Made by a program: the position numbers and the translations under genes. This document shows, piece after piece, positions 10,987-61,739 of a DNA stretch of 64,000 bases; within the stretch, counting starts at the first letter, position 1, and every line of letters starts with the position of its first letter. Under the pieces are notes generated by a model. That model did no database searches, was not told where the DNA came from, and saw only the letters and a program-made list of their open reading frames with translations. This stretch comes from Diogma glabrata (lineage: Eukaryota; Arthropoda; Insecta; Diptera; Cylindrotomidae): the NCBI GenBank assembly GCA_963693315.1, contig OY856186.1, positions 305,303,879 to 305,367,878 on the forward strand. The letters are read 5' to 3'.

Positions 10987-11133
10987 GGAAATCTAGACGT
11001 CGATATAGAAAATATAACTTTAAAAATTTATGGACAGTTTTCTGTATCAGCGCAAAGGCGTGAAACGTTAAAAGACATGCATCAATTTACAGAGATCGAA
11101 TTTAAGGAAATTCTACGTCATATACCTACTTAG
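10987..11133 (+). pseudogene. hAT/ZBED-like transposase, fragment 1 of 4
   Basis: A coding piece preceded by a splice-acceptor-like TTTACTTTAG. It contains LKIYGQFSVSAQRRETLK and ends with FKEILRHIPT, matching the central part of hAT transposases of the ZBED-like insect type just before their PTRW motif. The frame is cut by the DNA transposon starting at 11134 and resumes at 19955. Later parts are at 25723 and 30589. The N-terminal zinc finger half was not found upstream. This is the oldest layer of the 11-31 kb nest and is not functional. Confidence 0.75.
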
Positions 11134-11199
11134 CCCGACAAACATTTTTGGTTTTTTGACCCGAAAAATTACTTAGGAAATACCAATGACCGTGTCGGG

Positions 11200-12060
11200 C
11201 AATTACCGACATAATCCCTATAAAAGAACGTAATTTGAGGCTCTTTGGGCAGGCCGATTTTACCGATTCGGTAATTTTTGGGTCCCAATTTACTGTAACA
11301 TATTCGTGTTTGTTACTGAAGGTTTACATGTCAATTTTAGATAACCGGATCGGTATTTTTGCGGTTTTAGTTACCGTAATATATCAGCATTTATTGTGAA
11401 ACTCGTACGTTAACATTCTTAGCATTTTTACTGGAATATTTTACTTTACCTATTCGGTAATTTGAGGTACGAGGATTCTGTAAAATGTGAGTATTTGATA
11501 CTTAAGGTTGCCGTATCATTTTTGCATTAACGGATCGGTATTTTTACGGTTTTATTTACTGTAATATGTCAGTGTTTATTGTGGAATTCATACGTTAACA
11601 TTTTTAGTATTTTTACAGGAATATTTTACTTTACTGAATCAGTAATTTTGTCGTACGAGGTTACTGTAAAATGTGAGTGTTTATTACTGAAGGTTTACCT
11701 GTCAATTTTGTATTAACGGATTGGTATTTTTACTATCTTATTTACTGTAATATGTTAGCCTTTATTGTGGAATTAATACGTTAACATTTCTAGCATTTTT
11801 ACAGGAATATTTTACTTCACCGAATTTTGTGGTACTAGGTCACTTTAAAATATGAGTATTTTCTACTGAAATGTTTACATGTTCGTCTTATATTACGGTG
11901 ATCGGAATTTTTCGGTTTTAATTACAGTAATATGTCAGCCTTTATTGTGAAATTTTTAATTATGTTAACTTTTTTTGGATTTTTACTTTATTGGTTTATT
12001 TTACTGAATTGTTAATTTTGCGGTTCGAGATTACTACAAATGTGTGTTTATTTCATCAAT
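11200..12060 (+). repeat. Left subterminal array, unit about 185 bp
   Basis: Four to five diverged units beginning near 11346, 11533, 11719 and 11900. Each has GATCGGTATTTTT, GTAATATGTCAGC, TTTATTGTG, ATACGTTAACATT and TTACTTTAC, with TTACCG or TTACTG motifs. These are candidate transposase binding sites, by analogy with CACTA subterminal repeats. Confidence 0.8.
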
Positions 12061-13082
<1,022 letters not shown>

Positions 13083-14671
13083 TTAGCATTCAAAACATAA
13101 AAATCGTAAGATTAAAACAGGTCTTTCAAAAGTTTGTGATTTCATAAATTTTTCACCATACATATAATACAAAATATATTTACTTTTTTGTAGGCCAGCT
13201 TGCCCCGTCCATGAGTACTGGCATACAACTTTATAATCCATTAAGTATTCCATAATTAGTTTGACCGATGTATTTAGTTTATCTGTAACATGCATCAACA
13301 ATCTTAAAACCTGAAAAATTTTATATTAGTTACAAAGTGGAAATATTTATCATCGAGTTAGTTATTACCATTTGGTCCATATAATTTTGATTGATTAGTT
13401 TAGAGTTAAATTGAACCACCGATCCTACATCCGTCATTGGCAGTTCCGGCAGAATAAAACTGGGGTCCTTCTCGATTTTTAATGCCTTTTTGTCTAATGT
13501 TTTTTTTACCAACGCGGTCAATGATTGCAGCATCTCAAATATGGTATCCGTTTTTTGGTCCAACTTCATTTGCATATCTTCAATATTTTTCAACTGTTTT
13601 TTAGTTTTTTTTTTTAAACTTTTCGAATTCTTCTGAATTAATAACTTCATTTCTGTTCTCAGCTATATTATATTATAAAAATAAGTATATTGTATTATAA
13701 ACATAACTAAAACAGGTAGTACTATTGAATTCCTTTATTAAAACGAAATTTAGTTTAGTTCTACCACTTTGCATTAAAAGACAACCCAAACTATGGGCCT
13801 TGGAATTTATAAAAACTTATTGAAAATGAAACGAATCGGAACCGAACGAAACCAATGTGCTCTGATAGCTTCATACGCCTTTTATTTGACCTAATTATGC
13901 AATGTAGTAGAACGATTTTAATTAAGGGATTGATACTTTACCGAGAATGAGATATAATCACGTCGATTATAGAACCCGAATGGTTCTATAATAGACGTGA
14001 ATAAATTTTTTGTGTAAAATAAAGTTAATTTAGCTGAATAAAAATTTAGTTACTTTCATTTGGATGTAATTCGGCATTACATCGATAAACTGGTGTTCCT
14101 TCTTCAAATGTCGTCAAATTTCCTAAAAACACAGACTAATGTTATAAATTTTTACATATAATACACTATATTTTATTGTTAATTTACCTGTTAAAATACT
14201 AATTTCGCTCAACGGCTCAAATTGTTGATCCTCTATTATTATTTTTTTGGTAAGGGTGGTTGCGTTGTTGGGAGGAGCCACGTTCTCTTGGTCATTCGCC
14301 ATTAACTTATTAAAATCGAAATTATTAGGTTTAGTTTTATTTACTGCAGTTTTCTCCGATTCGGAATTCGTATACTGCATGTATACTTCTTCAGCCTTAA
14401 TTGCTTCATGTGTAGTTTCTGAATTATAATTATACAAAATAAGGATATGATATATATCTGTACTAGACACAACACTTACGAATGTTATTTTTTAGCATTT
14501 TATAGCTATATGCTGCCCAATCCGGAGCAACTTCGTCGTTGTTTTTAAATGATTTAGTATAATTTTTTGGCCACATTAAATAATTATTTACTAGCCATTT
14601 TGTGCACACTGCAACACATTCTGATATACCGTTAGGCTTTGTTGTTTCCACAATGCAGTACATTATTCTAC
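13083..14671 (-). CDS. DUF4806-like protein gene of the CACTA-like transposon, five exons
   Basis: A spliced minus-strand gene. Exons read as about 14671-14480, 14418-14188, 14122-14054, 13662-13369 and 13310-13083, with GTAAG or GTAA donors and TAG or CAG acceptors. Exon 1 starts MYCIVETTKPNG and contains TKWLVNNYLMWP and a later APDWAAYSYK, like the Trp-containing head found before DUF4806 domains. Exon 4 has a Lys-rich coiled coil and then FILPELPMTDV. Exon 5 holds the DUF4806-type ending with YSWTGQAG. It lies just downstream of the transposase, same strand, as in the second copy at 57.5-58.7 kb. Cellular role unknown; an accessory DNA-binding or regulatory protein is a guess. The exon 3 boundary is uncertain, since that exon could end in a stop. 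Confidence 0.7.
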
Positions 14672-14938
14672 CTAAATAAAAAAGAGATTATATAAAACTG
14701 GAAAAATAGATTAATATAAAATAAGTAGTATTTCATTTGATAAGGAATTGGCAAATGAAATGCAAATTTGGCAAATGAAATACTACAGTATAGGTTAATT
14801 TAAAATTGGAAAAATATCCTAAGTAATGATTAGTAAAAAATTAAGTAAGCAAATAATAGACAAAGAGAAGAAGAGATAGTTCTAACTAATTGGTACTGCA
14901 TACAATTAAATAGGAAAAAATACTAAGAAATAAATGGC

Positions 14939-16881
14939 TTACATGTCTTTGCTATGTAGTAACGGAAAAAAAACTCTATATCCGTTATCTTCATAGCACT
15001 CCATACAAAATACTTTTTGTGTGATATCACTAAGTTTCCAATAAGTCGGTCTATTTTCAGTCATGCTGGTTTTGAAAATTTTGAAATTGCTTGATGCTAC
15101 TGGTATGTCATAAAAGTTTTCCTTTCCTATTGTTTCCGAACCATACACGTAGAATTCATTGTCAATTTTTTCTAAATATTGAAACGCAATAATATTTTCG
15201 TTGTTGGTCAAGAGCCATTTATTTTTTTTATCATCTTTGATTTTGAAGTTTTCCATAATGACCGTTGAGTAGACTGTTTTTTTCTCTTCCTGTTCACCTA
15301 TTAGTTTTTGTTTCATTAATATTGGAAAGGAAACAACATCTTCTTTTAATTTTAGACAATTTATATTGTTGATTTCAGAAATTCGGTTGGTTAACTGAGC
15401 GAGTGGTTGGTTGTGTTTCCGCAGAAGTCGCTTTATAACTGTCATATAACTTTCGAATGGAAATGCGCTGTAGTTGTCTAAAGTTCCATATATTTTTACA
15501 TCATCTGGTAAATGTATCAATGAATGTACATTATATACAATATGATCGTTTCCATAAATCATACCAAACCCATCTACAAATGCTTTTAGCATTGATTTAG
15601 CCACATCATTTTTTGTTTTAGAAAGAGTCTTATCACATAGTATTAATATAGACGTATGCAATAGGAGAAAGTTTGAATATTTCTCAGGTGACAAAATATT
15701 TTTCAATACAAACGGTCCTGAATATAATAAAAATGTTCTAAATTCAGTCCCCTTATAAAAATGCAAGTCAGAAAGATCTCTTATTTTCCTTTGAAATTCA
15801 CACGGTTGGAATGATGAAATTTGAAGAAGCTTTGTGGAAATCTGCTTTATGTCTCGGTTGGGTAAAACATTTGGAGGCCTACCACTAACCCACATTTTTA
15901 ATAATTTTTTCATGACACCGAGACAAACCACATGAAGGTAATCAAGGGGAAACTGTTTAACCATGTCTATATCCAGCTCCTCTAAAATTGATGTTGTGAT
16001 GTGATGATCCTCATCGATTTTATTCCGGAATGACTCATTTGTGCGCAATAGTGCATTATTTTCTGGAAAAGTCATTCTGTAGTTTAAATGATCTCCCTCT
16101 TGCGAACATTTTCCGCATCCAAAGTAACCGCAATGTGATTTTATGCCCAATACACTGGATTTTGCAGGAGCATCGCATATAAATGAAATTATTTTAATGG
16201 GAGTATCATAAATATTTGTTGAACGTTTAATATCCTCTACAAGAGGGCGCATAAAATCATTAAAATTAGATGGTTTGCTGTTTCCATAATAGATACCAAC
16301 AACAAAAACACTGCTACGTGGAATATTATTTATTTTCCCTAAAATCATCCAAAAACTGCTTCGCTACTTTTCGATATTGGTACACCATCTATATTGAAAC
16401 TAATTTCAATCACATCTGGTATATGTTGAATGGTATTTAATATGACTTCAATGTTGCTTTTTAAGCCAATGTGAGTGTATCTCCCTGGTGGTATGTCTAG
16501 AACTTCTCTTGATTTTGGGGTTCGGAGAAGAGTTCGGCTATCTTTCGGAATGCCGGGATAAGCGGTTTTCTTTAAATATGCTAGAAGCTCGTTCAATGCA
16601 TTCATTTTAATATTGAACTTAATGGCCCACTTAATAATGAAATCCGTAAAAGTTTCATTTATACTTAACTCATCTTCTTCATCATACTTATCGCCATCAT
16701 CCATTCTTTCTTCTTCTATTACACCTGCAGTACTCGGAGCTGGGTCTTCTTCTGCTTCTACTCGGTTCACATTTTGAAGGTCTTTTGCGGTAGCTGCTGA
16801 CACTCTAACACTTGTATTTGCCTTATATCGCCGCTTTAAAGCTTGTTTTGACAAGTTCAAAATATTCTTATACTTTGGCAT
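14939..16881 (-). pseudogene. TNP2/Transposase_21-like transposase, one frameshift
   Basis: Two minus-strand frames that make one protein. The N-terminal part (to 16345, best start MPKYKNILNLS at 16881) has an acidic Glu/Asp stretch, FIIKWAIKFNIKMNALNELL, then PKDSRTLLRTPKS and NIDGVPISKSS. The second part (16348-14939, 469 codons) has VFVVGIYYGNSKP, CDAPAKSSVLGIKSHCGYFG with paired Cys (a likely zinc-binding turn), FPLDYLHVVCLGVMKKLL, FRTFLLYSGPFVLK and HSLIHLPDDVKIYG. These are hallmarks of animal TNP2-like transposases, which act in the nucleus by cut-and-paste. The frames overlap by 4 nt at 16345-16348 in a T run. A single-base loss there explains the break, so the element may be nearly intact or misread. 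The last codon is followed by TAA within a GTAAGC donor-like site. Confidence 0.85.
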
Positions 16882-16959
16882 TTTCTTGAATGTACCCGTA
16901 TATTGCGTAGTAATAAAATAAAAATTAAATAAAACCTTTAATTGAAATACGAAAGATAA

Positions 16960-18720
16960 AATATTCTTTACCAAACATAATCCAAGCTATTATCGAACAA
17001 TTATGACAAAAACACATAAAATTACAACTAAAAAAAGTCCATAAAATTATCGCGAAACCGCAAAAAAAATTGTAATAATTTCCAATTGAAATACAAACGA
17101 AAAACTATTCTTTACCGAGCATGATTCAAAATATTATCGAACAATTATTGTTACAAAAACACTTCGCTCAATTTTAAAATAACCAATAGGAAAAACTACG
17201 AATTACCGAACAAAGCCCATAAAATTACCGCGAAATCGTAAAAAAAATTGTAATAATTTTCAATTGAAATACAAACGAAAAACTATTCTTTACCGAGCAT
17301 GATTCAAAATATTATCGAACAATTATTGTTACACAAACACTTCGCTCAATTTTAAAATAACCAATAGGAAAATCTACGAATTACCGAACAAAGCCCATAA
17401 AATTACCGCGAAATCGTAAAAAAAATTGTAATAATTTTCAATTGAAATACAAACGAAAAACTATTCTTTACCGAGCATGATTCAAAATATTATCGAACAA
17501 TTATTGTTACAAAAACACTTCGCTCAATTTTAAAATAACCAATAGGAAAAACTACGAATTACCGAACAAAGCCCATAAAATTACCGCGAAATCGTAAAAA
17601 AATTTTTAATAATTTTCAATTGAAATACAAACGAAAAACTATTCTTTACCGAGCATGATTCAAAATATTATCGAACAATTATTGTAACAAAAACACTTCG
17701 CTCAATTTTGAAATAACCAATAGGAAAATCTACGAATTACCGAACAAAGCCCATAAAATTACCACGAAATCGTAAAAAAAATTGTAATAATTTTCAATTG
17801 AGATACAAACGAAAAACTATTCTTTACCGAGCATGATTCAAAATATTATCGAACAATTATTGTTACAAAAACACTTCGCTCAATTTTAAAATAACCAATA
17901 GGAAAAACTACGAATTACCGAACAAAGCCCATAAAATTACCGCGAAATCGTAAAAAAATTTTTAATAATTTTTAATTGAAATACAAACGAAAAACTATTC
18001 TTTACCGAGCATGATTCAAAATATTATCGAACAATTATTGTTACAAAAACACTTCGCTCAATTTTAAAATAACCAATAGGAAAAACTACGAATTACCGAA
18101 CAAAGCCCATAAAATTACCGCGAAATCGTAAAAAAATTTTTAATAATTTTTAATTGAAATACAAACGAAAAACTATTCTTTACCGAGCATGATTCAAAAT
18201 ATTATCGAACAATTATTGTTACAAAAACACTTCGCTCAATTTTAAAATAACCAATAGGAAAAACTACGAATTACCGAACAAAGCCCATAAAATTACCGCG
18301 AAATCGTAAAAAAAATTGTAATAATTTTCAATTGAAATACAAACGAAAAACTATTCTCTACCGAGCATGATTCAAAATATTATCGAACAATTATTGTTAC
18401 AAAAACACTTCGCTCAATTTTAAAATAACCAATAGGAAAAACTACGAATTACCGAACAAAGCCCATAAAATTACCGCGAAATCGTAAAAAAAATTGTAAT
18501 AATTTTCAATTGAAATACAAACGAAAAACTATTCTCTACCGAGCATGATCCAACTTTAATCTAACAATAATTGTTACAAAAACACTTCGCTCAATTTTAA
18601 AATTACCAATAGGAAAAAATACGAATCAAAACAAGTCCATAAAATTATTGCCAAATTGTAAAAAAAAATTGTAATAATTTATAATTGAAATAAAAAAAAT
18701 TGTAATAATTTATAAATGAA
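16960..18720 (-). repeat. 178-bp satellite array in the transposon's 5' region
   Basis: Nearly ten head-to-tail units. GAATTACCGAAC recurs at 17200, 17378, 17556, 17734, 17912, 18090, 18268 and 18446, exactly 178 bp apart. Each unit also has TTTACCGAGCATGATTC and ATTATCGAACAATTATTG. Inner units are almost identical; the outermost are diverged. TTACCGA motifs occur at least twice per unit. The array lies between a splice-donor-like site at 18757 and the transposase start, so it probably sits in the first intron or 5' leader. Confidence 0.95.
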
Positions 18721-18749
18721 ATAAAAAATAAATCAAAATTAATAAAATT

Positions 18750-18900
18750 CACTTACCCTTTTCTATATACCGTAATACAAATTTTACTCTGTTAATTTTT
18801 TAAAAAATGTGGTAATTTAATTTTTTTTCTATTATTATTATTAACTGTCGTCTTCACTTAACACTTATAACTCTCTACTGACGTATATAAAACAATAAAA
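18750..18900 (-). promoter_or_regulatory. Candidate promoter and non-coding first exon of the transposase
   Basis: On the minus strand TTTTATATACG (about 18880) is followed by TCAGT, an insect initiator-like motif. Further downstream CGGTATATAGAAAAGG leads into a strong donor GTAAGTGAAT at about 18757. Read together this is a TATA region, a short leader exon and an intron containing the 178-bp array. Inferred from sequence order only. Confidence 0.4.
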
Positions 18901-19029
18901 AGGGAATATGTATCCCCACTCCCAACTATTTTACTATTAGGTCAGTGAGACAAAAAAATGGAATGTGAGAGCTTGTTGTTTCTCTTTCGATAAATATAAA
19001 ACAAAAAATTTAAACTGTAAATTTTTTGA

Positions 19030-19954
19030 GAATTATTAAAAAAATGTATGACGATTTTGCGGTAATTTTATGGACTTTGTTCGGTAATTCGTAGTTTTTC
19101 CTACTTTTATTTTCAAAATTATTTCAAAGGTTTTTGTAACAATTACTCGGTAATATTTTGGATCATTCTCGGCAAAGAATATTTGGTTTTTTTAATTATA
19201 ATTTCGTATTTCCTTTAGTGGCTGTAAATATTTGTAAATAATAATAATATTTAATTTCAATTTCTCGGTAAATTGGTGGGACTGGTTCGGTAATTTAGTA
19301 GTCGTAGTTTTTTATCAGCGATTTATATTTGTGCTAATCAATATATAAGACGTTTATGCCATAAATATAATTAAATTTTGAAGATTTGGTTAATAATTTA
19401 AAATATTTTGTTCAGATTTTTCACTTTGGTCATTGATAATGTGAAATTTTAATTTCTTGGTAAATTGGTGGGACTGGTTCGGTAATTTCGTAGTCGTTAT
19501 TTTTTATCAGCGATTTATGATTGTGCCAATCAATACATATTTAATATACATGTTTGTTATTCTTTGTAATTTTAGAGTATTTTGTCAGAAATTCTTAACT
19601 TTTTATTTTAATTTATTATAATTTCAACTTATGTATAGTTCTCTTTCTTTACTGTACTTTTACCGTCCTTGTTCAGTAATTCAGTATTCGTTCTTTAATC
19701 CATATTTTTGATTAAGTGCAAACGAAATAAAATAAATAAAATATTCCGAATTTTAAATGAATGTATATAAATTACAACAAGAAAAATAATAAATAATCAT
19801 TATTTGTCTCTTTCACTCTAATATTTCAGTAGTTTATTTATTTTTGTTATTCTCTTTTGGTAATACGTTTTGAGTTGTTGTTTTTGTAATTGTTACCGAC
19901 ACACGGTATTTTTGAGCCCGCTATGTAGCTCTCGGTATTAAAATGTTTGTCGGG
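19030..19954. repeat. Right subterminal repeats of the CACTA-like element
   Basis: A reverse-oriented copy of the satellite motif (GACTTTGTTCGGTAATTCG) at about 19070. It is followed by a roughly 185-bp block with GGTGGGACTGGTTCGGTAAT present twice (about 19270 and 19455), further CGGTAAT motifs, and a terminal segment with CGGTATT before the right end. Together with the left array it places similar motifs in opposite orientations at the two ends. Confidence 0.75.
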
Positions 19955-20075
19955 TAGGGTACACTGTCTTTGCAGCCGTATATAGATATAATTTTACTTT
20001 CTTGGAAGGCCTTGAGTAGTTATTTTTAAAGCAAGCAGAGATTGTCCTAAACAAATTTTCAAAATTCTATGTATT
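19955..20075 (+). pseudogene. hAT/ZBED-like transposase, fragment 2 of 4
   Basis: Continues the frame broken at 11133. GTLSLQPYIDIILLSWKAL corresponds to the segment just after the PTRW motif of hAT transposases. It is followed by a cysteine-containing DCPKQIFKIL segment that runs in frame across the TATT duplication of the gypsy element into fragment 3. Confidence 0.75.
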
Positions 20076-21370: not shown

Positions 21371-22216
21371 ATGGAGAATCCTGATCAAAAAAAATAGTAA
21401 AATACACAGTGAGGTTAGTACCTTTATCAGATTACCTCCTTATTTTCCAAATTCGTTAAACTCGTGGTGCATACAGGTTGAATCACAATTCAATCTACCT
21501 AGGCAAAATAAAAACAGATATAACTAAATACAATTATTTGATTTCGGCATTGCCACAAGACGTTTGCGAAAATCTATTGGACGTATTAGAGAACCCGCCT
21601 GAAAATAATTTATACGATAATTTGAAGAAAACTATAATCAGTCGACATTCACTAAGTATGGAGCGACGAATCAAGAAGATAATATCAGACGCGGAGATCG
21701 GTGATAGCAAACCTAGTGAATTTTATCGGCGTTTAAAGGTGCTGGCAGGAAATTCAGGTACTGTAGGTGACGAGTTAATAAAAAGTCTTTGGATTTCTCG
21801 CCTACCAAACCTTATAAATATAGCTTTGATTCCACAGTTAGACACGGAATTAGTGGAATTACAAGCTCTTAGACACCGCCGACAAAATATTTGACTCCAT
21901 GCAATATTTTTCAAACATTTCGGTAATTACCAAGTCCAACCCTGATGTAGCACACCCAAGTTGTACCGCATGCTGTTCTGGCAACGACAATATAAAAAAA
22001 ATCGAACAAGAGGTGTCCGAATTAAAAAGAATGTTCAGATCTTGTAACACAAATAGATATAGATCAAGGTCACGCTCCAAGTCACGAGACACAACAGGCA
22101 GAGCAGAGAGGGATCGCTTATGCTGGTACCACTTCAATTTTGGCTCGAATACTGAGAAATGCGTATCACCATGCAAGTTTAAAAACGCCCAATTAACTCC
22201 AGACTCAAAAAACTAA
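21371..22216 (+). pseudogene. Gag of the gypsy element, frameshifted
   Basis: Likely start MENPDQKK at 21371, then a shift in an A8 run at about 21388. TFIRLPPYFPNSLNSW and VESQFNL follow, typical of the gypsy Gag matrix/capsid start. A second shift near 21505 leads to KYNYLISALPQD, and a third near 21890 to the final frame with TADKIFDSM, a Ser/Arg-rich RSRSRSKSRD segment and LCWYHFNFG with later CVSPC. That last part is a Cys-His-Cys-Cys knuckle that binds RNA. The frame ends with TAA at 22214 on top of a slippery site. The indels break the protein; assembly error is possible for at least the A-run one. Confidence 0.85.
22207..22213 (+). promoter_or_regulatory. -1 ribosomal frameshift slippery site A AAA AAC
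   Basis: The heptamer AAAAAAC lies in the Gag frame as A AAA AAC, immediately before the Gag stop. A -1 shift enters the open protease/RT frame, which has no stop from here to 23622. This is the canonical slippery pattern for making Gag-Pol. Confidence 0.75.
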
Positions 22217-23622
22217 TTAGTTCTCCTGCTAACACGGCTACCAGAGAGATTACCAATATTAATAGCCGTTTATTTATTTTAGACAAAAACAGCAAACTGA
22301 ATTTTTTAATCGACACGGGAGCCGACTTATCTTGTATACCAGCAGCAAAATACCAATTTTCAGCCACAAAAGATTCAAATTTTTACTTATCAGCTGCAAA
22401 TGGAACTAGAATTAACACTTTCGGTAATAAATTACTAACTCTAGATCTAGGCCTTCATCGCAGTTTCAAACATGAATTTTTGTTGGCAGAGGTGAACAGA
22501 CCAATTATAGGCGCTGATTTTTTAGCAAAATTCGGACTATCGGTCGATCTTAAAAGGAAGCGTTTAGTTGACACTGTTACAAAAATTTCAATCAATGTTA
22601 TTTCAGCAACATCAGGTGATACACCAATAGCCGTAACCTTCAAATCAGATGGTAAATATGAAGAACTACTCAGGGATTTTCCAGGGATTACAGCAACACC
22701 GAATTTCGGACATATAACAAAACACTCAGTAGTCCATCATATTGTGACTAAAGGTCATTTACCTTTTGCAAAGCCTCGACGTCTTGACCCACAAAAGCAT
22801 AAAGCTGCAAAGCTGGAATTCGACCACATGCTTCAATCAGGGATCTGCCGACCTTCGTCTTCTCCAGTTTCATCTCCTTTGCACTTAGTGGCGAAGAAAG
22901 ATAGTGGGGACTGGCGTCCATGTGGAGATTACAGACGGTTAAATGTTGTCACTGAACCCGATCGATTTCCGATTCCTCACATTCAGGATTTTACCATGAA
23001 ACTAGCCGGTTGTGCCATATTTTCAAAAATCGATTTAGTTCAAGCTTATCACCAAATACCGATCGCTAGCGAAGATGTTTATAAAACTGCGATTACAACG
23101 CCATTTGGACTGTTCGAATTCCCTCGAATGGGATTTGGTCTACGAAACGCCAGTCAGACGTTCCAACGTTTTATGAACGAAGTAACTTCTGGGCTGGAGT
23201 TTTTATTTGTGTATATTGATGATATCTTAATTGTTAGTCACAATGAAAAAGAACATTTTGTTCATCTAAAATTACTGTTCAAAAGACTGGACAAATACGG
23301 TTTAACAATTAAACTAGCGAAATGCATTTTTGGTGTAACGACACTGAAATTTTTGGGATATACAATTTCAAAAGATGGAATTCTACCTTCAATAGATAAC
23401 GTAAAATCCATCACTGATTTTCCTAAACCCACATCGATAAAGCAAATGCAAAGATTTATAGGGATGGTAAATTACTATCACAGGTTTTTGCCCCATCTTG
23501 CTCAAGATTTGACTCCCATTTATAACCACCTGCCATTTTTTCAAAAGCAACCCAAATCCAAAAGATTTTTTTCATGGCCAGACGTTGGGACAAACTTGTT
23601 CATAAAATCAAAAACAATATAG
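22214..23622 (+). CDS. Gypsy Pol, protease and reverse transcriptase part
   Basis: Open in the -1 frame relative to Gag. The aspartic protease motif [11 protein letters not shown] lies near 22305-22340. Reverse transcriptase follows, with [60 protein letters not shown] and the catalytic YIDD ([11 protein letters not shown]) near 23215, then FLGYTIS and [14 protein letters not shown]. All RT catalytic Asp residues are present. It copies element RNA into DNA in the particle. Pol breaks by a one-base shift near 23598; the rest continues in the next frame. Confidence 0.95.
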
Positions 23623-25295
23623 CAAATGCAACACTACTAACTCATCCAGTTGATGATGCTGTTTTAAATATTACTGCTGACGCTTCAAACATAGCAGTAG
23701 GGGCAGTTTTGCAGCAGTTTTATAATGTATTCTGGCAGCCCTTATCGTTTTTTTCGCGGAAATTGTCTACTGCTGAAACAAAATATTCAGCATTTGACCG
23801 CGAGCTTTTAGCTATATATTTAGCAATTAAGCACTTTACGTATTTCATCGAAGGTCGAACACTCGCGGTATACACGGACCACAAACCACTCATTTACATT
23901 TTGAATTCCAAAACCGAACGTAGTCCTAGACAAACACGGCACATGGAATACATCGCTCAATTCACTAACGACATACGTCACGTAAGTGGTAAAAGCAATG
24001 TAGTAGCCGATTTTTTGTCACGTCCGATGGAAACTACTGAGGTTAACGTATTGTTGCAGTGTAACAACTTCATCAACGAACAAAAAACTGATTCTGCGAT
24101 AAATAAGTTCATGGAAAGCAAAACAAGAAAGAACAATATGATATTCGATTATATCAATGTGCCTCTAGCAGAGGAAAAACTGTTATGTGAAACGAGTACC
24201 GGTATCAACAGACCTTTTGTACCAGTTTCTCTTCGCAAAGTAGTGTTTGATAAGCTGCATAGCTTGTCTCAACCAGGAGTTAGGGCATCACGCAAACTAA
24301 TTACCGATCGATATTTTTGGCCAAATATCAACAAAGATATAGGTGTATGGACGAAAGCGTGCATTTCTTGTCAGAAATCCAAAGTATTTAGACACACACG
24401 CTCAGGTTTCCAGAAATTTGATGTAGCAAACAGTCGTTTTGAGCACATCCATCTGGATCTGGTTGGACCACTTCCATATTCGTCGGGTTCTAATTACATT
24501 TTGACAATAGTCGATAGATTTTCAAGGTGGCCTGAAGCATATCCAATAGCAGAAATATCAACCGAAACAGTTGCAAAGACATTTGTTGCACAATATCTTT
24601 CAAGGTTTGGTGTACCGTCTATCGTAACCACGGATCGAGGTGCACAATTCACCTCACGTTTGTTCTCCGCAATAACCGAGCTAATTGGTACACATCACAT
24701 TAAAACAACAGCGTACCACCCACAGTCAAATGGACTAGTGGAAAGGTTCCACAGACATTTGAAAGGATCTATAATGGCTAGATGTAACACTTCGAACTGG
24801 ACCGAAGAACTACCTATCATATTGCTAGGAATACGTGTTGCGCATAAAGAAGATCTGCAATGTTCAGCGGCGGAAATGTTGTATGGACAGACATTACGGA
24901 TTCCAGGAGAAATATTCACTAAGAGCCCTGTCTCTGATACAGATTCTTTTGCACTAGTTCAAAAGTTAGGGCAGTTCATGCAGAATTTAAAAATATCAGA
25001 ACCAAGATCTACAAAACAAACTAACATTTTCATTCCAAAAACCCTAGAAAACTGCAACCAAGTTTTCATAAGAATCGACAAAGTAAAAAAACCTCTACAA
25101 CAGCCCTACGACGGCCCATTTGCTGTAATAAGAAAATTCAGAAAGCATTTTGTTGTTTGTGTAAATGGAAAAAATGTGTCAATATCAATCGATCGGTTAA
25201 AACCAGCGTTTGGTATTTTGGGTACTGTGGAACATAAAATCAAAAAAACAGTAACATTTCAAACAGAAAACTCTAACACTATACACTCGTTATAA
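23574..25295 (+). CDS. Gypsy Pol, RNase H and integrase part
   Basis: True homology begins near 23600 after the frameshift. RNase H has [32 protein letters not shown] and [11 protein letters not shown]. The His-Cys integrase zinc finger follows ([12 protein letters not shown] with later CISCQKSK). The integrase core has [27 protein letters not shown] and [17 protein letters not shown], giving the D-D-E triad. A C-terminal segment of the gypsy type ends at 25295. It removes the RNA strand and inserts the DNA copy into the genome. Apart from the upstream shift this 573-codon frame is undamaged. Confidence 0.95.
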
Positions 25296-25883: not shown

Positions 25884-26346
25884 CCATAAGTCAGAAGACC
25901 ATATATATATATACATTATACAACATTCAAAGCGACAAGACGTGTTTGCATTTATTTGTGGTAATTGTAATATAAAGTTTATATTAAATTTATTTTTTCT
26001 GTGTTTCTAAATACTAACTAAGTTCTATTAAATTGTTGTTCATAACTAAGTTCAAAGTTTTTGTTACATTTTTGTTTAAGGCTAAAATAAAATAACACTA
26101 AAATCAATTTTTTAACTATAAATTTGAAAAAAAAACATATCAGGTTTTGATTAAATATATTAAAGTGATACTTTTACTGTAATTTAATCTGTTACGTAAT
26201 TTGCTGTTGTGTTATTTTCCGTATTTGTATTCACGATCAGTAAATTGGTGTTTTATATTTTCTGAATAAATTCAAAGTGTTTCACAAACATTATAATTAA
26301 GTTCAGTATCATAAATACGGTAGAGTTCAGTATAACTAATTACACT
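25884..26346 (+). other. LINE 5' untranslated region
   Basis: About 460 bp with no gene. It should contain the internal promoter, though I see no clear motif. The 61-codon frame at 25790-25975 straddles the hAT/LINE junction and is not a gene. Confidence 0.55.
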
Positions 26347-27168
26347 ATGGGTAGTGTAACTCGCTCCCCAGTCAAAACTCGCCATGGATCTTCTACTAAA
26401 GAAGAAGTGCAAGCTGATTCACTTCTGCCTAAAGAAATTAAACATTTTATGGCGGAAATTAACAATAAATTAAATGGTTTCAATGACATGACAGCTGAAA
26501 TTAAGCAGATGCACTCTACCCTAAACCAAATGAATTTTGATGTTCTACGTAATAAGGATGATATCGCTACTAACCCTAAAAACATTAAAGAGCTTATCGA
26601 TGACCAGAACGTTAATTCTGATAAATTTCTTGATTTGGAATGCAAGCTAGCTGGTCTGGTGGATAAATATACCATATCTGAGCGTTTAAAGAGATACTCT
26701 TGTATTGTTATCTCCAATCTGCCAGTTTATAATAATATATCTGACACTGAAATTGTTATCAGAGTTGGGAACATCCTGGATCTAGATCTTGTGAAGTGCA
26801 TCGTATTAGTCAGTAGATTTGCTGACAAATCTGGAAAAGGAACACCGACTTTATTGGTCCGTTTCACGGAGATTTCAATGAAGAATAAAATTTTATACAA
26901 CTATCATTCAATCAAATCTTCTTCAATAACTCTTCGTGATCTGAAGTTATCTGACCTAAACCTAAGAGTTTATCTCAATGATCACCTTAGCAAGGAAACC
27001 TATGATTTGTTCAACAAGGTTAAAGCTGAAACTAAGAAGCATCTTAATCTTTTTCGTAGTGTTACTATCCGTAATGGTAGGGTTGCTGTTAAAACCCATA
27101 ACGAAGATAAATATATCACACTGCTTTCATTCAACGATCTCCTTAAACTCATTAATGAATCTATTTAA
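26347..27168 (+). CDS. LINE ORF1 protein
   Basis: A 273-residue intact frame with a basic Ser/Thr-rich start (MGSVTRSPVKTRHGSS). A coiled-coil-like region with regular hydrophobic spacing spans roughly residues 30-110. It is followed by an RRM-like part with RYSCIVISNLPVYNNISD and TPTLLVRFTEISMKNKIL, and a C-terminal domain. This arrangement matches coiled-coil/RRM-type ORF1 proteins of CR1 and Jockey-group LINEs, which trimerise and coat element RNA. No zinc knuckle is visible. It lies 329 bases before ORF2, with a T-rich non-coding spacer between. Confidence 0.8.
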   Translation: MGSVTRSPVKTRHGSSTKEEVQADSLLPKEIKHFMAEINNKLNGFNDMTAEIKQMHSTLNQMNFDVLRNKDDIATNPKNIKELIDDQNVNSDKFLDLECKLAGLVDKYTISERLKRYSCIVISNLPVYNNISDTEIVIRVGNILDLDLVKCIVLVSRFADKSGKGTPTLLVRFTEISMKNKILYNYHSIKSSSITLRDLKLSDLNLRVYLNDHLSKETYDLFNKVKAETKKHLNLFRSVTIRNGRVAVKTHNEDKYITLLSFNDLLKLINESI

Positions 27169-27497
27169 CATTTGTTTACAACTTATCATATGTATTACCG
27201 TATTGCTTTTGTTGTTGTTCTTATTTTTAATATTATTAATTGCTTTTTTTTATGAAATTTCGTTAAATTTTTCTTTTTATTTAGGTAGTGATTTAAAATT
27301 AAATTTGTTGTTTTTTTCATATAAGTTAGGTTTATATTTCGTTTACGATAAGATTGCTTTGCTTTCAATGTATTTATTTTTTGCTATTTTACGGATTGTT
27401 TTTGTGGGGGGTTTTTCATTTTTGATTAGATCATTATTGTATTTTTTACTATTTTCCTGTTTTTCGTTTCTTTTGAGTATGCTGTACGGATCCTTTT
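27169..27497 (+). other. Spacer between LINE ORFs
   Basis: T-rich. The hydrophobic frame over it (26978-27511) is a product of base composition, not a membrane protein. Confidence 0.6.
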
Positions 27498-30353
27498 ATG
27501 AGCTCCTCTAATCATATTGTCGATGAAGCCATGCAGGAAATAATTCATCCTGTAGCAGGGATAATTAATAGAATCCTTAAATGTTCAAAATACTCTCTTT
27601 TGATGGCTCATATCAATGCTCGTAGTATCCCGGCCCATTTTGATGAATTAAGCATGTTTCTCCGTACTTCTAATCTTCATATTCTTGGTATAACTGAAAC
27701 TTGGCTAAGTCCTAAGAATACCCTTTCCTCTATTAATATTCAGGGATTCAAACTGTTGCGTAATGATAGATTAAAGATCGGAGGTGGGGTGGCATTATAC
27801 ATAAAATCCAATTTTAAATCAAAAATAATTGCGAGATCGTCCCTAGTTAAAGTCGAACACTTATTAGTTGAACTCTCTCTATCTGGGGGAAAAATATTGA
27901 TAGGTGTTTTTTATAACCCTCCACCGACATCAGTTTCTGATGTTAACGCAATTGAGGAAATACTGAATTCTGTAATACATGAGTACAAGCATATTATTTA
28001 AATGGGTGATTTTAATTTTAACCTAAATGCTTCCCCTTTATCCCACATTACGTCGAATTTTGCTGACCTACTATCGTCATTGTCCCTGTTCATTATTCCA
28101 TCAAATCCTACTCGTTTAGATTCGCTGCTAGACATATTTTTTATTCACTCCGCGGATATGGCGAGAGTTTCAAACTTCGGGCAAACCTCAACAGGAATTT
28201 CGGATCATGACATTATTTTTTTTGCCTTTAATTATCGAGTCCCCACCCCTTCTAACGTTTATATTCATGTTCGTGACATTACACAAATTAAGTTGTTGGA
28301 GTTGAACAGAGATCTTGAGTTGCTGGATTGGCATCTAATTTACGAAACAGTTGATCCAAACGACAAACTACGTATATTTAATTCCCACATCTCTGAGCTG
28401 TATAACTTGCATGTACCTGGTAAAAAAGTTCTTTTGCGAAATCCTAGTACCCCATGGATGAAACCTCATATACTTGCTGCTATTGAAATGAGAGATGCTG
28501 CGTTTAAAATCTATATTAAATCTAAATCGGCTGAGGATCGTAAAATTTTCTCTAGATTACGCAACAAGGTTACACTGTTAATTAAAACTTCTAAACGTGA
28601 TTATTATAATTCCATGCTCAAAATCGATCTACCATCCAGGAAATTTTGGCAGAACTTAAATAAATTGGGCTACTCTTCCAAAGAACGTAATGAGCAGACT
28701 GACATTCGGCCTAATGATTTTAATAAACACTTCACCGCTATCATACAAAATCCCATCGTTTTGCCACTACCTTATCGCGATTTCACATTTCAGACAACTT
28801 TCTCATTTATTCCTTTTTCACTTGATGAAATTGTGCTGGCTTTTTCTAAAATTCAATCTGATGCCGTTGGTAGCGATGAAATCCCACTAAAATTTCTTAA
28901 AATACTTCTTCCAAATATTCTTCAACATGTTCCTCATATTTTCAACCATTTTGTTTATTCTTCCCTATTTCCTGATCTTTGGAAAATGGCTATAGTTGTG
29001 CCCATCCCCAAAATATCTCAGCCAATCTTGGTCAGCGATTTTAGACCCATTAGTATCTTACCAGCACTCTCTAAGGTATTCGAAATGCTTCTAAAGGCTC
29101 AAATGTCGTTATACTTAAATCAAAATGATCTACTGGATCCTTTTCAATCAGGGTTTAGAAGTGGCCACAGCACCATAACAGCACTAACAAAAGTAGTAAA
29201 CTCGATTGCAACGCAAATTGATATAGGTAACTTTTCATTACTCACTTTACTTGATTTCAGTCATGCTTTTGAAACTATTGGGCATACGTGTCTTGTACAA
29301 AAGCTTAAACTTTTCTTTGGCTTTTCTGATCAGGCTGCCCGGCTTATATTTTCATATCTTACTGAGAGAACCCAAAAAGTTAAAAGTTCTGATTGCTTCT
29401 CCACTGCCTTACCTTTGAATTCGGGGGTTCCTCAAGGGTCTATTTTGGGCCCCTTACTTTTCTCTCTCTATCTGATAGATCTTCCAGGGCACCTTGTACA
29501 CTCTAAGTATCATCTATACGCTGACGATTTTCAAATTTATATTTTTGGATCCAAATATCACATTGAACGTACCTTTGAGCTGCTTAATCAGGATCTTTCT
29601 GCTATTTCTGACTGGGTTGTGAAAAATGGATTACAGCTTAATGTTAAGAAAACTCAGTCTTTACTTATTAGTCGTCCTTCTATTCGCTCAATTATTCCTG
29701 CTCTGTATTTAAACAACCAACGCCTTGAATTGCATGATAAGGTCCGGAACTTGGGTGTTATCTTCAAAAAGAATCTTGACTGGAATGACCATATTACTAG
29801 TGTCTGCAACAAGGTTCAGTATACACTACATAGGTTAAGAACCTTGAAATTCTACACTCCACTAGAGCTTCGCATTTTCCTAATTAAATCTCTAGTTATG
29901 CCGCATTTTTTGAATGGCGATATTTTATTTTATAATATGGGTTATGAAAATGAAAGAAAAATTAGACTGGCTTTTAACTCTTGTATTAGATACATATACG
30001 ATCTTCGATATTATGACCATGTTTCGCCGTATATTAAAACAATTTTGGGAATGGATTTGATGTTTTATTACTTTTTCCGTGTAGTCTTGTTTATTTTTAA
30101 AATAATACACTATCAGCATCCTTCATATTTGTATTCTCTAATCATTTTTGCTTCTTCGCCTCGCACCAAGAACCTGATATTGCCTATGTGTCGCACTAAC
30201 CTTATAAAAAGTACAACTTTCGTGCATGGTTTCAAACTTTGGAATAAACTACCGATAAATATTAAAACATTGGAAAGTACAGCGCACTTCAAAAGAAACT
30301 GTTTGTTTTATTTTAAAAGCTTAAGAATTACTCCCAAACAGTATAATCCGTAA
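27498..30353 (+). pseudogene. LINE ORF2: endonuclease and reverse transcriptase, one nonsense codon
   Basis: One frame of about 950 codons interrupted by TAA at 27999-28001, just before MGDFNFNL. The AP-like endonuclease has LMAHINARSIPAHFDEL, ILGITETWLS, GGGVALYIK, GDFN and GISDHDIIFF. The reverse transcriptase has DFRPISILPALSKVFE, QSGFRSGHSTITALTK, LTLLDFSHAFETIGH, GVPQGSILGPLLFSLYLIDL and the catalytic HLYADDFQIY. The C-terminal segment with FVHGFKLWNKLP is typical of CR1/Jockey elements. The enzyme nicks target DNA and primes reverse transcription there. Motif A reads DFSHAFE where DFSKAFD is usual. The stop is one base from a sense codon. Confidence 0.9.
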
Positions 30354-52457: not shown

Positions 52458-52771
52458 ATTATTTATTTAAGAAAAATAGAAAAGAAAACGGAAGGATGGA
52501 TAATAAAATATCAAAAAATAAATTATTTCTTTCTTTGGACAAGTATAAATCAACCAAAAAAATAATACTTCTCATTTTTCTAACTCTAGGTAGTGTTCTG
52601 ATAATAAATGTTCGAAGTTATTTTGCGCATAACTTAGTTCTAATGTTGTAGTTTTGTGATAAAGTGATCGTTCTTCAATTTTCTTAAAATATTAGTAGTT
52701 TTGTGAAAAAGTGATAAGTTTCCTTAAAAAATTAGTAGTTTTGTAATAAACTAATAATTCTTGTTAAAAAT
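52458..52771. other. Putative promoter and leader of the next gene
   Basis: AT-rich, no ORF. The motif TTAGTAGTTTTGTGA recurs three times (about 52647-52745) just before the ATG. Confidence 0.35.
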
Positions 52772-54031
52772 GTCAGTATATATAAATACAATTTTCCAAA
52801 ACAAACCAGGAATAATAAAAATATCTCCTCTTTGTTCAGATGATTCTTCCAAAAATATTAAATTGAAAGATTTTATAAGATGTGGTTAGTATAGTGATTA
52901 AAATTTTAGGTAATTTTTTGTAAACATAAAATCTGTTTGGAGTGAAAAGTTATTATAACATCCAAGAAAATATTAAGTTTTTGGACAATAGCACATCAAG
53001 TATTATTCCAGATAACCAGCTTGTAGAGTATGTGGAGCAATACCGTTCATCAGCTGGCTGGATTTTAAAAGTTGAACTGAAAGAAGCCTTTGAAATAATA
53101 GGCAAAATTAATTTAGTAGTATCAGTTTATTAGCTTATATCATTTTATTTATATAACATTTGCTTGGTAAAATTATATAAATTTATATACGTGCTGTACA
53201 AGTTAAACGTATTATGTAATTACAGAGCCAATAAGCCAAATTTTAGACAGAAAAATATCTGATTCGCCACAAATCGATTTACTAAGCGTAGCGGAGTTAC
53301 CTACAGCTGAACCAACAGAAGTTCTAAGTTTTGTTGACATAACGAAACCTTCAGGTTCGACAAATTATGAATTAACCGTGCCGTACAGAACAACTTCTTG
53401 TCATGATGAGAATGATTTCATAGACCATACACGGGAAAGATTTGTTAGAGATAACTTAACTGCAGAGGTGTTTATCGAATTTATACAATTATGTATATAA
53501 CTCACATAAATTATTTCTTTCTAGAAACTAAAATCGTTGGAAGATATTGATTTCAAAATAATTTATAATCTTTACCAACGATCAACGAGTAAAGAATTAT
53601 CGAATGCGCATCAAGTAAAGCTATCAAAAATAGTAATCGAGCTTGTTTTATCGGAAGATGTGGATCTTGGGTATGATTTTATCAAATTTAATTTAAAAAT
53701 AACAAATGCTAATTTTATTTACGCTTATTTACTTTCATCATAATAGATTAAATAGATACAGTTTTATGTATTTATCGGATATTGTATGTCAAGTGTTCAA
53801 GGCAGAAAAACGAGAAATATACTGCACTGCTGCACTAAAAGGACAAAAGCCTTCAGGAAAATTGTATGATGCATACTGCAATTACCGAAAACAACTATCC
53901 ACTGCGGCTATAATTCAAAGAAGAACATACACAACTAAATTATTATCCTCTACATCTACATCAATAACAGAACCTGGTTTGTATACTTCATATAACCTAA
54001 TTTTTCTACCTTTAAAAAAGATTCAAAAATA
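52772..54031 (+). CDS. Spliced uncharacterised protein with C-terminal SGKLYDAY motif
   Basis: Exons on the plus strand: about 52772-52881 (MSVYINTIFQNKPGIIKIS, KLKDFIRCG), about 52942-53115 (YNIQENIKFLDNS, LVEYVEQYRSSAGWIL), 53226-53467 (LDRKISDSPQIDLLSVAELP, VPYRTTSCHDENDF), 53525-53669 (LKSLEDIDFKIIYNLYQRS, QVKLSKIVIELVLSEDVDLG) and 53747-54031 (LNRYSFMYLSDIVCQVFKAE, KPSGKLYDAYCNYRKQL). Introns are 60-110 nt. The ending resembles a widespread uncharacterised domain of many predicted insect and cnidarian proteins, often in repeated copies. It lies 1.7 kb before the second TNP2-like transposase, same strand, and could be a third gene of that element. No frameshift is obvious, but exon 2/3 phase is uncertain. 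Confidence 0.6.
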
Positions 54032-55758: not shown

Positions 55759-57480
55759 TTGGACAAAGACGCTCACGATCATGAAGTGAATGTGGAAGAG
55801 CCGAATGAAATATTTCAAGGTTTTGAAGTTGAAGTTGCCTACAATCAATCAAATGAACATCATAAGCAAATTTTAGATTTAGAAAATGATGATGATTTTG
55901 TAAATGTGACAGACGAATGTAATAATTTTAGCATTGCTGAGTTCCTCCTCAATTGGGCACCAAAATATAATATCAAAGTGAACGCTGTTAACGAACTTTT
56001 ATCGTTTTTAAAAAATTCACTAGCTTCCTAGGTTCCATTAGATAGCCGAACCCTTTTAAAAACCCTTCAAAATAGAGAAACACTAGACTGTCCGCCAGGG
56101 AAATATGTTCACGTTGATTTAAGGTCAAACTTGGATAACCTGTTAATTAAACATCAGAAAGTCTCTCTATTGGAATTAGATATTAATATTGATGGCGTTC
56201 CAATTACTAAAAGTAATAGGAGTTGTTTCGTTATTTTGGTTGTTTAAAATGTACAGTAGAAGGGAAGTTTGTAAAAAACAGAATGGTGTTTGCAATTGAG
56301 AAACACTCTGGATTGCGAACTATAACGAGTCTGTTAGGCAAAGAACACAGGCGGAACATCATAAACTCGACTCCATTTTGGAAGAACTTCCAATCGATAT
56401 AGTTCGACAATTTCCTCTAGAATATTTACATTTAGTTTGTTTAGGGGTTGTCAAAAAATTAATTCAAATGTGGTTGAGTGGTGACTCAAACTCTCTTCTA
56501 TCAAACATAGAAGTCCAAAAAATTTCTGACAATCTGAAATCAATATCTGTAAGTCAACCTTCTGATTTCCAGCGTAGTATTAGACCATTAATTGATTTTG
56601 GTTATTTTAAAGGTTCAGAATTAAGAGTATTTCTCCTATATTCGGGTCGTTTTGTTTTAAAAGATTTAATTTCCAAAGAAAAATACAACCATTTTATGCT
56701 ATTACACGTAGAAATTGTGTTATTATGCCATAACAAATATTCTAAAACTAAACTGGAAGTTGCCGATAAAATTTTAAAACAATTTATTAATGGTACTAGC
56801 TCTTTATATGGACGACATCATATAACTTATAACATGCATTTTTTAACACATTTAACCGAAGATGTAAAACATTTCGGAAATTTAGATCAATTTTCTGCCT
56901 TTGCTTTTAAAAGTTTTATGTGTGTTATTAAACGTCTTCTAAGAAAACCTAATCAACCATTGGCCTAAATCTGTAATAGAATTTTTGAAATAAATAATGC
57001 TAATATTATCAATTATAAAAAAAAATTCCGAAGAAATCTTATCCAATACTGCACAGAAAATTTTTTAAAGATAATAAAGTATTCTTCAATGAAATTTTGT
57101 ATGGAAATTTTGAGATTAAAAACGATAGCAGAAATTGTTGGATGTTGACGAAAGCTAAAACTATAGTAAAATTTGTATGCGTGGAAGCAATTAAAAATGA
57201 AATATTCATTTGGTGTAAAGAAGCAACGGATGCGACAGATTTTTATAGTTTCCCTATTCGGTCAAGTAAACTTGATATTTGTGAAGCAACGTTTTCAGAT
57301 GGACCTGAAAAACAATTCCAAACTAACGAGATTGAAACTAAAATGTTTGCATTGAGCCGGAAAGATACGTATTTTTTCCAATACTCCATTCATTTTAAAA
57401 ATGTAGGTGATATTTTCACTATTGGAAATCTTAAAAATTTATGTAATTTTCTATGTAATATAAATTTTAGATATATGTAA
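55759..57480 (+). pseudogene. Second, decayed TNP2-like transposase copy
   Basis: Homologous to the transposase at 14939-16881 but in the opposite orientation. Pieces in order: SIAEFLLNWAPKYNIKVNAV and NELLSFLK (to 56031); LDSRTLLKTL, INIDGVPITKS (to about 56220); a deletion that removes the CDAPA segment; LPIDIVRQFPLEYLHLVCLG, ELRVFLLYSGRFVLKDL, HFLTHLTEDVKHFG (56378-56968); and a C-terminal part with FEIKNDSRNCWMLT (to 57480). Stops and frameshifts occur at 56031, 56230, 56968 and 57000-57097. It is diverged at most positions, so the copies belong to different subfamilies. No terminal inverted repeats were found. Confidence 0.85.
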
Positions 57481-57526: not shown

Positions 57527-58663
57527 AAAATCAATGCTGTCCTTGAAACGATTTCCGATGACCAGGAAAAGAAAGTTTCGGTTATTTTACAAAAGTGGGT
57601 TGTTAAAAAATTTGTTTAATGGCCTTCTTAGTATAAAAGAGCCCTGACAAACCAATTAGAAATTGAACCGTCGTGGGAAAAGTACCAATGCCGTATTTTA
57701 AAACAAAATATCAACTCTTTTAGTGAGGCGAAGAGAGTTGAAAAGCATTTTGAAACTTATTCGAATTCTGAAAATGAATTTTATAATTCAAGAAAAAGGC
57801 CGAAATTCACATTTACTGACTGCAATGAGGATTTCGATACATCAAAAATCGAAAAACCTCTCCTCCGGTAAACTTGGAAACATTGCCATCTTTAGTACCA
57901 ATACAACGAGATAACTATAGTAATAATAGTACAATTTTTTTAGATAATACATCAAAGAAACTTCCTTTTGCTGGAAAACCAGATGACGTAGCGTCAAATT
58001 AAATTATGATTTTAGAGGATAATGTTACCCCAATCATAAATGAATCATTTATGATTGAACAAACATCAAATGAGTCAATCCAGATTTATATTAATGATTT
58101 TGAGGACCACATCAGATCGACTTCAGTCCAACAGATCACTGCATCTTTAGATGAAATCCCGAGTACTCCAATCTTTAGAAGTAATCGTTTCATTAAAGAA
58201 AGCGAAACAGATTTAGTAGTCCAAAAAATTGAAAAACTCGAGGAAGACGTAAGAATCATTAAAGCAAATCAACTGAAAATTCTAAAAAACCAAGAAGATA
58301 TTATTAACAATAAAATTATAACCAAAAAGTGCCTTGAGAATTTATTGGTAACAATAAGAAAATCAGAACGCAAAATAATAAAAAATAAGACGTTTGTGTT
58401 GCCTAAAATGCCAATAACCAAGGTGGAAGAGCTATCAAACTTTAATTCTCATCTAATGAACAAAGAATACATGGAGCAAATGGTAAAATTGTTAAATTCA
58501 CATATAAATATTTATTTTATTTAAATGTATATTTATATCATTTCAGATTCTATACTTCTTCAATTTTAAAGCAAACAACACAAATAAAACATTTAAAAAT
58601 ATAATGGAACATATGTTAAGTGATGAGTTGACAACAAAATATTCTTGGTCCGGACAGTCATAG
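57527..58663 (+). pseudogene. Second copy of the DUF4806-like gene
   Basis: Follows the transposase copy in the same order as at 13-17 kb. After a TTTTAG acceptor at 57526: INAVLETISDDQEKKVSV with LQKWVVKKF, matching exon 1 of the first copy. Then come an acidic or basic middle, the 58006-58524 frame with VVQKIEKLEEDVRIIKANQ (coiled coil) and KTFVLPKMPITKVEELS, an intron of about 50 nt, and the DUF4806 ending MLSDELTTKYSWSGQS, stop at 58663. Two in-frame stops near 57620 and 57905-57915. The last two exons are well kept relative to the first copy. Confidence 0.75.
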
Positions 58664-59317
58664 CTTTCGAAAGTTTTCATATATATTATTATTTATTATT
58701 TAATTAAGTTATTTTTTAGGTTTTTATTTAAAATAGTTTTTTTTGCTTATTTTGAACAAGTATTTTGAAACTTTGATAACATTTTATCACATAACTTATA
58801 ATACTACTACTAACTTATAATACTATATATAATATACATACATATATCTATACATATTGAGAAATTTTGCTCAAGAGACCATAGCTCTAAGTCGGATTTG
58901 GAGCCCCCCAAAATTTCAAAATAGATATTTTTCCATATATACATAGAACAATTTAATTAAATTCGTCATAAAATCGGATAGAATTATAGTAGATTTCTCA
59001 ATCTGGGCTTGTTTGAAAGGTATTTTCACCTTTCAGAATCTGTATTGATACCTGTAGAATAAGTCGTCAATGGCAGCATTGTTCAATTGAACAACTTTGT
59101 AGCACTGAATAATGACGTTACAAAATAATGACGTTTACCAACACTAAACGTTGCCAAGCTTGCTTTTCCTTCTTCCTTAATCGTTCATCATGCAATGCGC
59201 ACGCAGTTTGCCAAAATACTTAAATAAAAACTCGGTTATCACAATACCAATATTTTTTTTTATTTTTAAATTTAGTGTGACATAATCAAAAAGTGCAGTG
59301 ATAATATCAAAGTTATT
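58664..59317. other. No gene seen
   Basis: AT-rich sequence, simple TATACATA repeats near 58820, then a segment with GTCGGATTTGGAGCCCCCCA. From about 59200 it may be the promoter side of the next ORF. Confidence 0.5.
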
Positions 59318-61645: not shown

Positions 61646-61739
61646 ATTATCTTCGTTATATTGGATTGATATAAATACAAATTTAAACGAGCGCCATCAG
61701 TTAAATAAACTTAATAATATAAGTTTAAATATGGCGAGA

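Follow-up and report, generated by a model that had tools for sequence, protein, structure and literature searches.

A DUF4806-related gene linked to the TNP2-like transposase of TRC/CACTA-type DNA transposons in Diogma glabrata

Here we analyze a stretch of 64,000 nucleotides (hereafter the window, C1:305303879-305367878) from the 1.33 Gb genome of the dipteran Diogma glabrata (GenBank assembly GCA_963693315.1, contig OY856186.1), in which a gene for a TNP2-like transposase is followed by a multi-exon gene whose product is related to the protein family DUF4806. This gene pair lies inside a complete young transposon of the animal CACTA type (TRC), and our results support the view that the pairing of the two genes is real, old and selected. 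Dozens of related elements keep both genes together, which makes it probable that the transposon makes use of the second protein, and we consider it likely that the second gene is the animal counterpart of plant TnpA, that is, a partner of the transposase that binds the subterminal repeats of the element.

Linkage and selection of the two genes

The window holds two copies of the pair, one at 13-17 kb on the minus strand (copy 1) and one at 55.8-58.7 kb on the plus strand (copy 2), which the initial annotation had read as a transposase followed on the same strand by a second gene; we found this gene order in each of them. Genome searches were conducted with the copy-1 transposase (90 of 1,549 candidates scored), the transposase of locus L020 (102 of 1,429 scored), the second protein (143 places; 121 of 324 scored) and the head of the second protein from locus L040 (150 of 264 scored), and merging the results by coordinates yielded 166 transposase loci and 218 second-gene loci. 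At least 98 of the 166 transposases have a second gene at a distance of 6 kb or less, always on the 3' side and never upstream, with 67 of the linked loci showing both genes on the same strand (median gap 266 bp) and 31 showing them on opposite strands in convergent orientation (median 998 bp); copies of one family were counted separately here, and the 98 loci are not independent events. Conversely, at least 99 of the 218 second-gene loci adjoin one of these transposases. Random placement gave a mean of 0.42 linked loci and a maximum of 4 over 500 trials, under a null that was uniform over C1, C3 and C4, the largest three of the contigs observed, and not regional, so that clustering of transposons could raise it.

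No partner was detected at 68 of the 166 transposase loci. One locus unlinked in the first count, C4:80251148, was opened and contained a diverged second gene. The linkage of only 2 out of 36 loci at 38-44% transposase identity was rejected as evidence against the link, because the L040 head query raised it to 23 out of 36 and the low value is therefore largely a detection limit; this query was itself taken from a transposase-linked locus, and it matches members of the L040 family best. Intact copies, in most of which the absence of the second gene had been named by the initial annotation as an observation against its reading, mostly retain it: among the 90 scored matches of the copy-1 transposase, 30 of the 38 open transposases (frame of at least 600 amino acids, no stop, one row made of N excluded) are linked, including all 12 whose identity to copy 1 is at least 47% and 18 of 26 below 47%, a line drawn after the rows had been seen. 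A frame of 2,083 amino acids at C3:265749450 was rejected as a transposase row, being a run of N.

The linkage was also approached from the other gene. With the DUF4806 profile PF16064, at least 44 further genomic places score 29.3-52.8 bits (150 of 304 candidates scored), and in 20 of them, fetched with 10 kb each, a transposase stands beside the DUF4806 gene in 14 cases (13 convergent, 1 on the same strand), only the tail of a transposase is found in two (L010 and L011) and no transposase in four (L014, L015, L018 and L019). L010 and L011 are internally deleted elements of 4.3 and 4.6 kb with CCCAAGTAACAATT ends that hold the DUF4806 gene and the transposase tail only, and such elements could titrate or regulate full ones. 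Near the DUF4806 gene of L018 there are two CCCAAGTARCA ends facing the same way, and this locus is perhaps a remnant element.

Comparison of the second gene between families indicated purifying selection in all five comparisons, with proportions of synonymous differences (pS) near saturation (0.70-0.78), restrained proportions of nonsynonymous differences (pN, 0.34-0.48) and upper 95% limits of pN/pS between 0.55 and 0.79. The transposase gave the same result in its two comparisons (upper 95% limits of 0.36 and 0.47). In all of these values pN is somewhat underestimated, the alignments having been found by amino-acid similarity, and within families the ratio of nonsynonymous to synonymous substitution rates (dN/dS) was uninformative, copies being only a few percent apart. 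Selection on both genes had been proposed as a check when the pair was first noticed, together with the claim that the pairing is old, and this claim is now supported by the linkage at 98 or more loci, the two layouts and the near-saturated synonymous sites.

The copy-1 element and its two genes

The initial annotation had spanned 13083..16881, which covers the genes of copy 1 only and not the full element. Reading outward from the genes we found exact 15-bp inverted ends flanked by a 3-bp duplication (Table 1), and these ends are the sole exact 15-bp inverted pair in the window at a spacing of 4-15 kb with matching 3-bp flanks, after a simple composition filter. The 15-mer occurs 568 + 520 = 1,088 times exactly in the genome, compared with 0 + 1 for the backward control. 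Among five fetched siblings (L029-L033), three have both ends and each of these has its own perfect 3-bp duplication (L029 TAT, L030 TTT, L032 ATA, one end of L032 having one mismatch), while L031 shows one end and L033 none within the fetched stretch. All four elements of the copy-1 family with both ends, hence, carry a 3-bp duplication (TAG, TAT, TTT, ATA), within the 2-3 bp expected of CACTA/TRC elements. Coding parts differ by 0 to ~3% among copies of the family, from which we conclude that it moved recently. The tips are CCCGA, which agrees with the CCC tips of the TRC type and not with plant-type CACTA tips, and for this reason the element is not filed as plant-type CACTA; it belongs to the "TRC" branch, which comprises animal relatives of the CACTA (En/Spm) transposons.

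Table 1. Positions in the window of the copy-1 element, its parts and the remnants of copy 2
Feature	Position	Strand	Remarks
Target-site duplication, left	11131..11133		TAG
Whole element, TRC/CACTA-type DNA transposon	11134..19954 (8,821 bp)	genes on minus	exact 15-bp inverted ends + TAG/TAG
Left terminal inverted repeat	11134..11148	+	CCCGACAAACATTTT
Left subterminal tandem array	11290..11954		186-bp unit x 3.6, rich in TTACYG
Second gene, exon 5, predicted	13083..13310	-	remaining DUF4806-like domain, YSWTGQAG motif, stop
Second gene, exon 4, predicted	13369..13652	-	coiled coil and first half of DUF4806-like domain
Second gene, exon 3, predicted	14054..14122	-	
Second gene, exon 2, predicted	14188..14418	-	
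Second gene, exon 1, predicted	14480..14663	-	tryptophan-rich (W-rich) head
TNP2-like transposase, copy 1	14939..16881	-	ATG 16881, stop 14939; one frameshift near 16.35 kb
Right subterminal tandem array	17034..18696		178-bp unit x 9.4, rich in TTACCGA
Right terminal inverted repeat	19940..19954	-	inverse of CCCGACAAACATTTT
Target-site duplication, right	19955..19957		TAG
Copy 2, transposase remnant	55885..57392	+	internally deleted, stops and frameshifts
Copy 2, second gene	~57533..58663	+	same architecture, stops; intron of DUF4806-like domain at same place

Other elements share these ends, since the same 15-mer also flanks a related element at C1:50.53 Mb (5,698 bp; transposase 62% identical) and the copy L033 (11,020 bp). 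About eight close gene-bearing copies were seen against the 1,088 occurrences of the end, and many ends therefore probably come from non-autonomous derivatives. The copy-1 sibling L031 (C1:305294570-305304369) lies on the opposite strand and adjoins base 1 of the window on the left, its right end being at C1:305303813 and the window starting at 305303879.

The copy-1 transposase is read in two overlapping frames (16345-16986 and 14939-16363) and hence has one frameshift, whereas in the siblings L031 (C1:305298570) and L033 (C1:15370643) the frame is open over 682 amino acids. Its frames yielded 1,512 protein matches at E ≤ 1e-3; among the best 120 of these, the closest protein is ~51% identical and the named hosts are arthropods and fishes. 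Transposase relatives were also sought in viral and prokaryote contigs, and none were found there. In the Pfam analysis the main frame itself, ~50% identical to the database protein P0001, gave DUF4218 only (22.3 bits, below cut-off), and the Transposase_21 assignment comes from its relatives, with P0007 above the cut-off of 28.6 (30.0 bits) and P0001 (25.3), L034 (22.8) and L035 (22.0) below it. Three motifs, NIDG, CDAPA and SAF..E, are prominent in 14 aligned transposase rows, in which the Asp of the first, the Asp of the second and the Glu of the third are invariant or nearly so; these acidic positions of the transposase core are candidates for catalytic residues.

The second gene of copy 1 is predicted to run from an ATG at 14663 to a stop at 13083-13085 in five exons with GT/AG borders (the exon-4 acceptor at 13653 was set by the reading frame), encoding 331 amino acids without internal stop. 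The initial annotation had noted a Trp-rich head, a coiled coil and a DUF4806-type end; in the predicted protein the head has the pattern W..WP..W and is followed by a TNSESE motif, the coiled coil and a C-terminal region that contains YSWTGQAG, and the order of these parts is identical in copy 2 and, complete or partial, in L034, L035, L036, L037 and L040. The DUF4806-like domain is split by an intron that directly follows the codons ..DQM in copy 1 (..EQM in copy 2), L034, L035 and L037. In L020, which has the convergent layout, the corresponding codons precede the intron, and all of these introns are in phase 0. An acceptor-like AG lies no more than ~10 bases before the start of the second gene in copy 1, copy 2, L029, L034, L036, L037, L009 and L012, and no such AG precedes it in L035, L040 and L016. 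We considered that the two genes may have a common first exon and be separated by alternative splicing, the means by which Spm makes its gene products.

The relation of the second protein to DUF4806, also claimed at the outset, rests on profiles. The copy-1 protein alone reached 15.5 bits with PF16064 (E 0.023) against a gathering cut-off of 25, and it is therefore called DUF4806-related and not a member of the Pfam family; used as a single sequence it gave no match at E ≤ 1 among 1,281 candidates. A profile of seven second-gene proteins (hmmsearch) recovered three of nine DUF4806-type proteins above the HMMER inclusion threshold (P0122 37.6, P0121 30.8 and P0124 17.6 bits), the remaining six being at 10.8 bits or less or unlisted, and the best of 1000 shuffles reached 6.0 bits. 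Profile-to-profile alignment (hhalign) gave a probability of 97.9% across head, coil and tail, so that profiles and the intron position common to L020 point to homology with DUF4806 over the head, the coil and the C-terminal domain. The fold of BEN domains, which bind DNA, is present in a DUF4806 homologue, and PMC11075544, citing Pan et al. 2023, treats the family as a BEN-domain subtype. When the nine DUF4806-type proteins were compared by sequence with the PDB, no BEN entry was returned, only weak matches to unrelated chains. A transposase of Photinus pyralis labelled 'DUF4806 domain-containing protein' (P0100) has no such domain in the sequence examined and was not used as evidence; its label may perhaps be a trace of the same gene pairing.

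Two layouts, known relatives and neighbouring features

A transposase tree of ten copies from the host genome and 17 database proteins grouped copy 1, copy 2, L034 and L035 with P0001 and P0007 (support 0.976) and united the five convergent loci included (L009, L013, L016, L020 and L022) in one clade (support 1.000). We rejected the notion that the two layouts are two clades, since only the convergent loci form one and the same-strand locus L023 falls outside both groups; the same-strand L040 family was not among the tree rows. Convergence of the two genes thus looks like a single derived arrangement, with the same-strand layout not confined to one clade. Both layouts have the intron position inside the DUF4806 domain in common, and the presence of both means that the gene pair was kept while its orientation changed. 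Six DUF4806 loci have a pair of CCCAAGTARCA or CACAAGTAGCA ends, and in five of the six a 2-bp duplication accompanies the pair (L010, L011, L016, L020 and L021, but not L017). Such CCC tips are present at several loci of the convergent layout.

Copy 2 is a dead relative of copy 1, with a transposase that lacks the stretch that holds the CDAPA motif. The transposase cores of the two copies are 55% identical over 233 residues and the second genes ~30% (E 4e-12 over linked pieces).

These elements resemble the TRC elements reported from Schistosoma (SmTRC1), Tribolium and Aedes (DeMarco et al. 2006, PMC1636069), which are described as having CCC tips, a short target duplication, a TNP2/Transposase_21-type transposase, an internal tandem repeat and a second protein from exons downstream of the transposase, all as in the copy-1 element. 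The CCCAAGTAGCA ends of the convergent families here also resemble the Tribolium TRC end CCCTAGTAGCACC given there. That paper differs in reporting a duplication of 2 bp, where the copy-1 family has 3 bp, and no detectable conservation for the non-transposase proteins of SmTRC1, where the second protein here is near the DUF4806/BEN family; the convergent layout is an addition relative to TRC elements. Our literature searches, with Repbase, Dfam and subscription papers outside their reach, found no account linking DUF4806/BEN to a TNP2/CACTA transposase, and the passages of three papers that name DUF4806 do not tie it to a transposon.

Among neighbouring features, a multi-exon gene-like stretch (52750-53990, with ..GKLYDAYCNYRKQL.. 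in one frame) lies on the strand of copy 2 and directly precedes it, and by eye nothing like it was noticed in copy 1. Further on, a gene-like set of frames at 59276-62285 is interrupted by a 1-kb (TGTTG)n array at 60613-61645, and is followed at 62984-63988 by an (AACAC)n array that mirrors the first and is about as long; four pieces of this frame set had no Pfam match at E 0.01. Beside the transposon, 21460-25295 and 26266-30353 are a retroelement of the long terminal repeat type (RNase H, integrase) and one of the long interspersed nuclear element type (reverse transcriptase).

A possible role for the second protein

The motif TTAC[CT]G occurs 8.2 times per kb at the left end of the element and 7.5 at the right end (counting the 178-bp array as a single unit), compared with 0.5 within the genes and 0.7 in the other sequence tested. 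Of the 7-mers with three or more occurrences at each end, TCGGTAA shows the strongest enrichment, ~22-fold. A protein that binds the ends would be expected to have sites of this kind, although such crowding is not proof of one. In En/Spm, repeated motifs likewise fill the subterminal regions, TnpA sits on these repeats, and the target duplication is of 3 bp. Apart from its CCC instead of CACTA tips, the copy-1 element is like maize En/Spm (TnpA, TnpD) in having two proteins and a TNP2-type transposase, and the products of tnpA and tnpD are described as essential for transposition, with TNPD stabilising the binding of TNPA to DNA (PMC1636069). The end-binding domain DBD1 of the bacterial Tn3 transposase is also said to resemble BEN domains (PMC9579193).

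Because of the BEN fold of the homologue, the repeated end motifs and the En/Spm precedent, we propose that the second protein takes part in transposition. The TnpD-like transposase would cut and join the ends of the element, while the second protein, in which a coiled coil stands between a W-rich domain at the N-terminus and a DUF4806-like (BEN-fold) domain at the C-terminus, would most likely form a dimer or oligomer that binds the repeated TTACCGA-type motifs of the subterminal arrays and brings both ends together for the transposase. It may also regulate the promoter of the element, like TnpA in maize En/Spm.

The strongest competitor, to which we give a real but clearly smaller chance, is that the second protein acts outside the cutting complex, on chromatin or on the promoter, as a transcription regulator or anti-silencing factor; the motifs, however, crowd both ends and not only that of the promoter, and a regulator may serve in the cutting complex as well, the two roles not being exclusive. 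Much less probable is that the second gene is a passenger, captured from the host and without any role in the element. Other accessory genes are reported on DNA transposons, such as TET/JBP in fungi (PMC12730594), but a passenger would hardly be expected 3' of the transposase at 98 or more of 166 loci in two layouts, or under purifying selection across near-saturated synonymous divergence. That the pairing is a chance neighbourhood, as a transposon-rich, repeat-rich genome and only two copies in the window could suggest, is practically out of the question, being refuted by the linkage count of 98 against 0.42 (under the uniform, not regional, null), the lack of any partner on the 5' side and the enclosure of both genes by the same inverted ends.

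DUF4806 has so far been a family without explanation, with expansions in certain groups of animals, and its travel with a TNP2-type transposase in one genome gives it a testable function and a reason for these expansions, while offering a candidate identity for the second protein of the animal relatives of CACTA. Whether the whole family owes its spread among animals chiefly to its place as second gene in CACTA/TRC transposons, with DUF4806/BEN proteins being the animal counterpart of TnpA, is a wider and tentative idea that we consider somewhat on the doubtful side. If true, the DUF4806 genes that are reported to be numerous or enriched in Hydra, in a beetle and on a zebrafish sex-chromosome arm would largely be transposon genes or domesticated versions of them, and certain BEN-type regulators of hosts would go back to end-binding proteins of transposons. 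Such elements may have been a route by which BEN-fold DNA-binding proteins entered host gene regulation.
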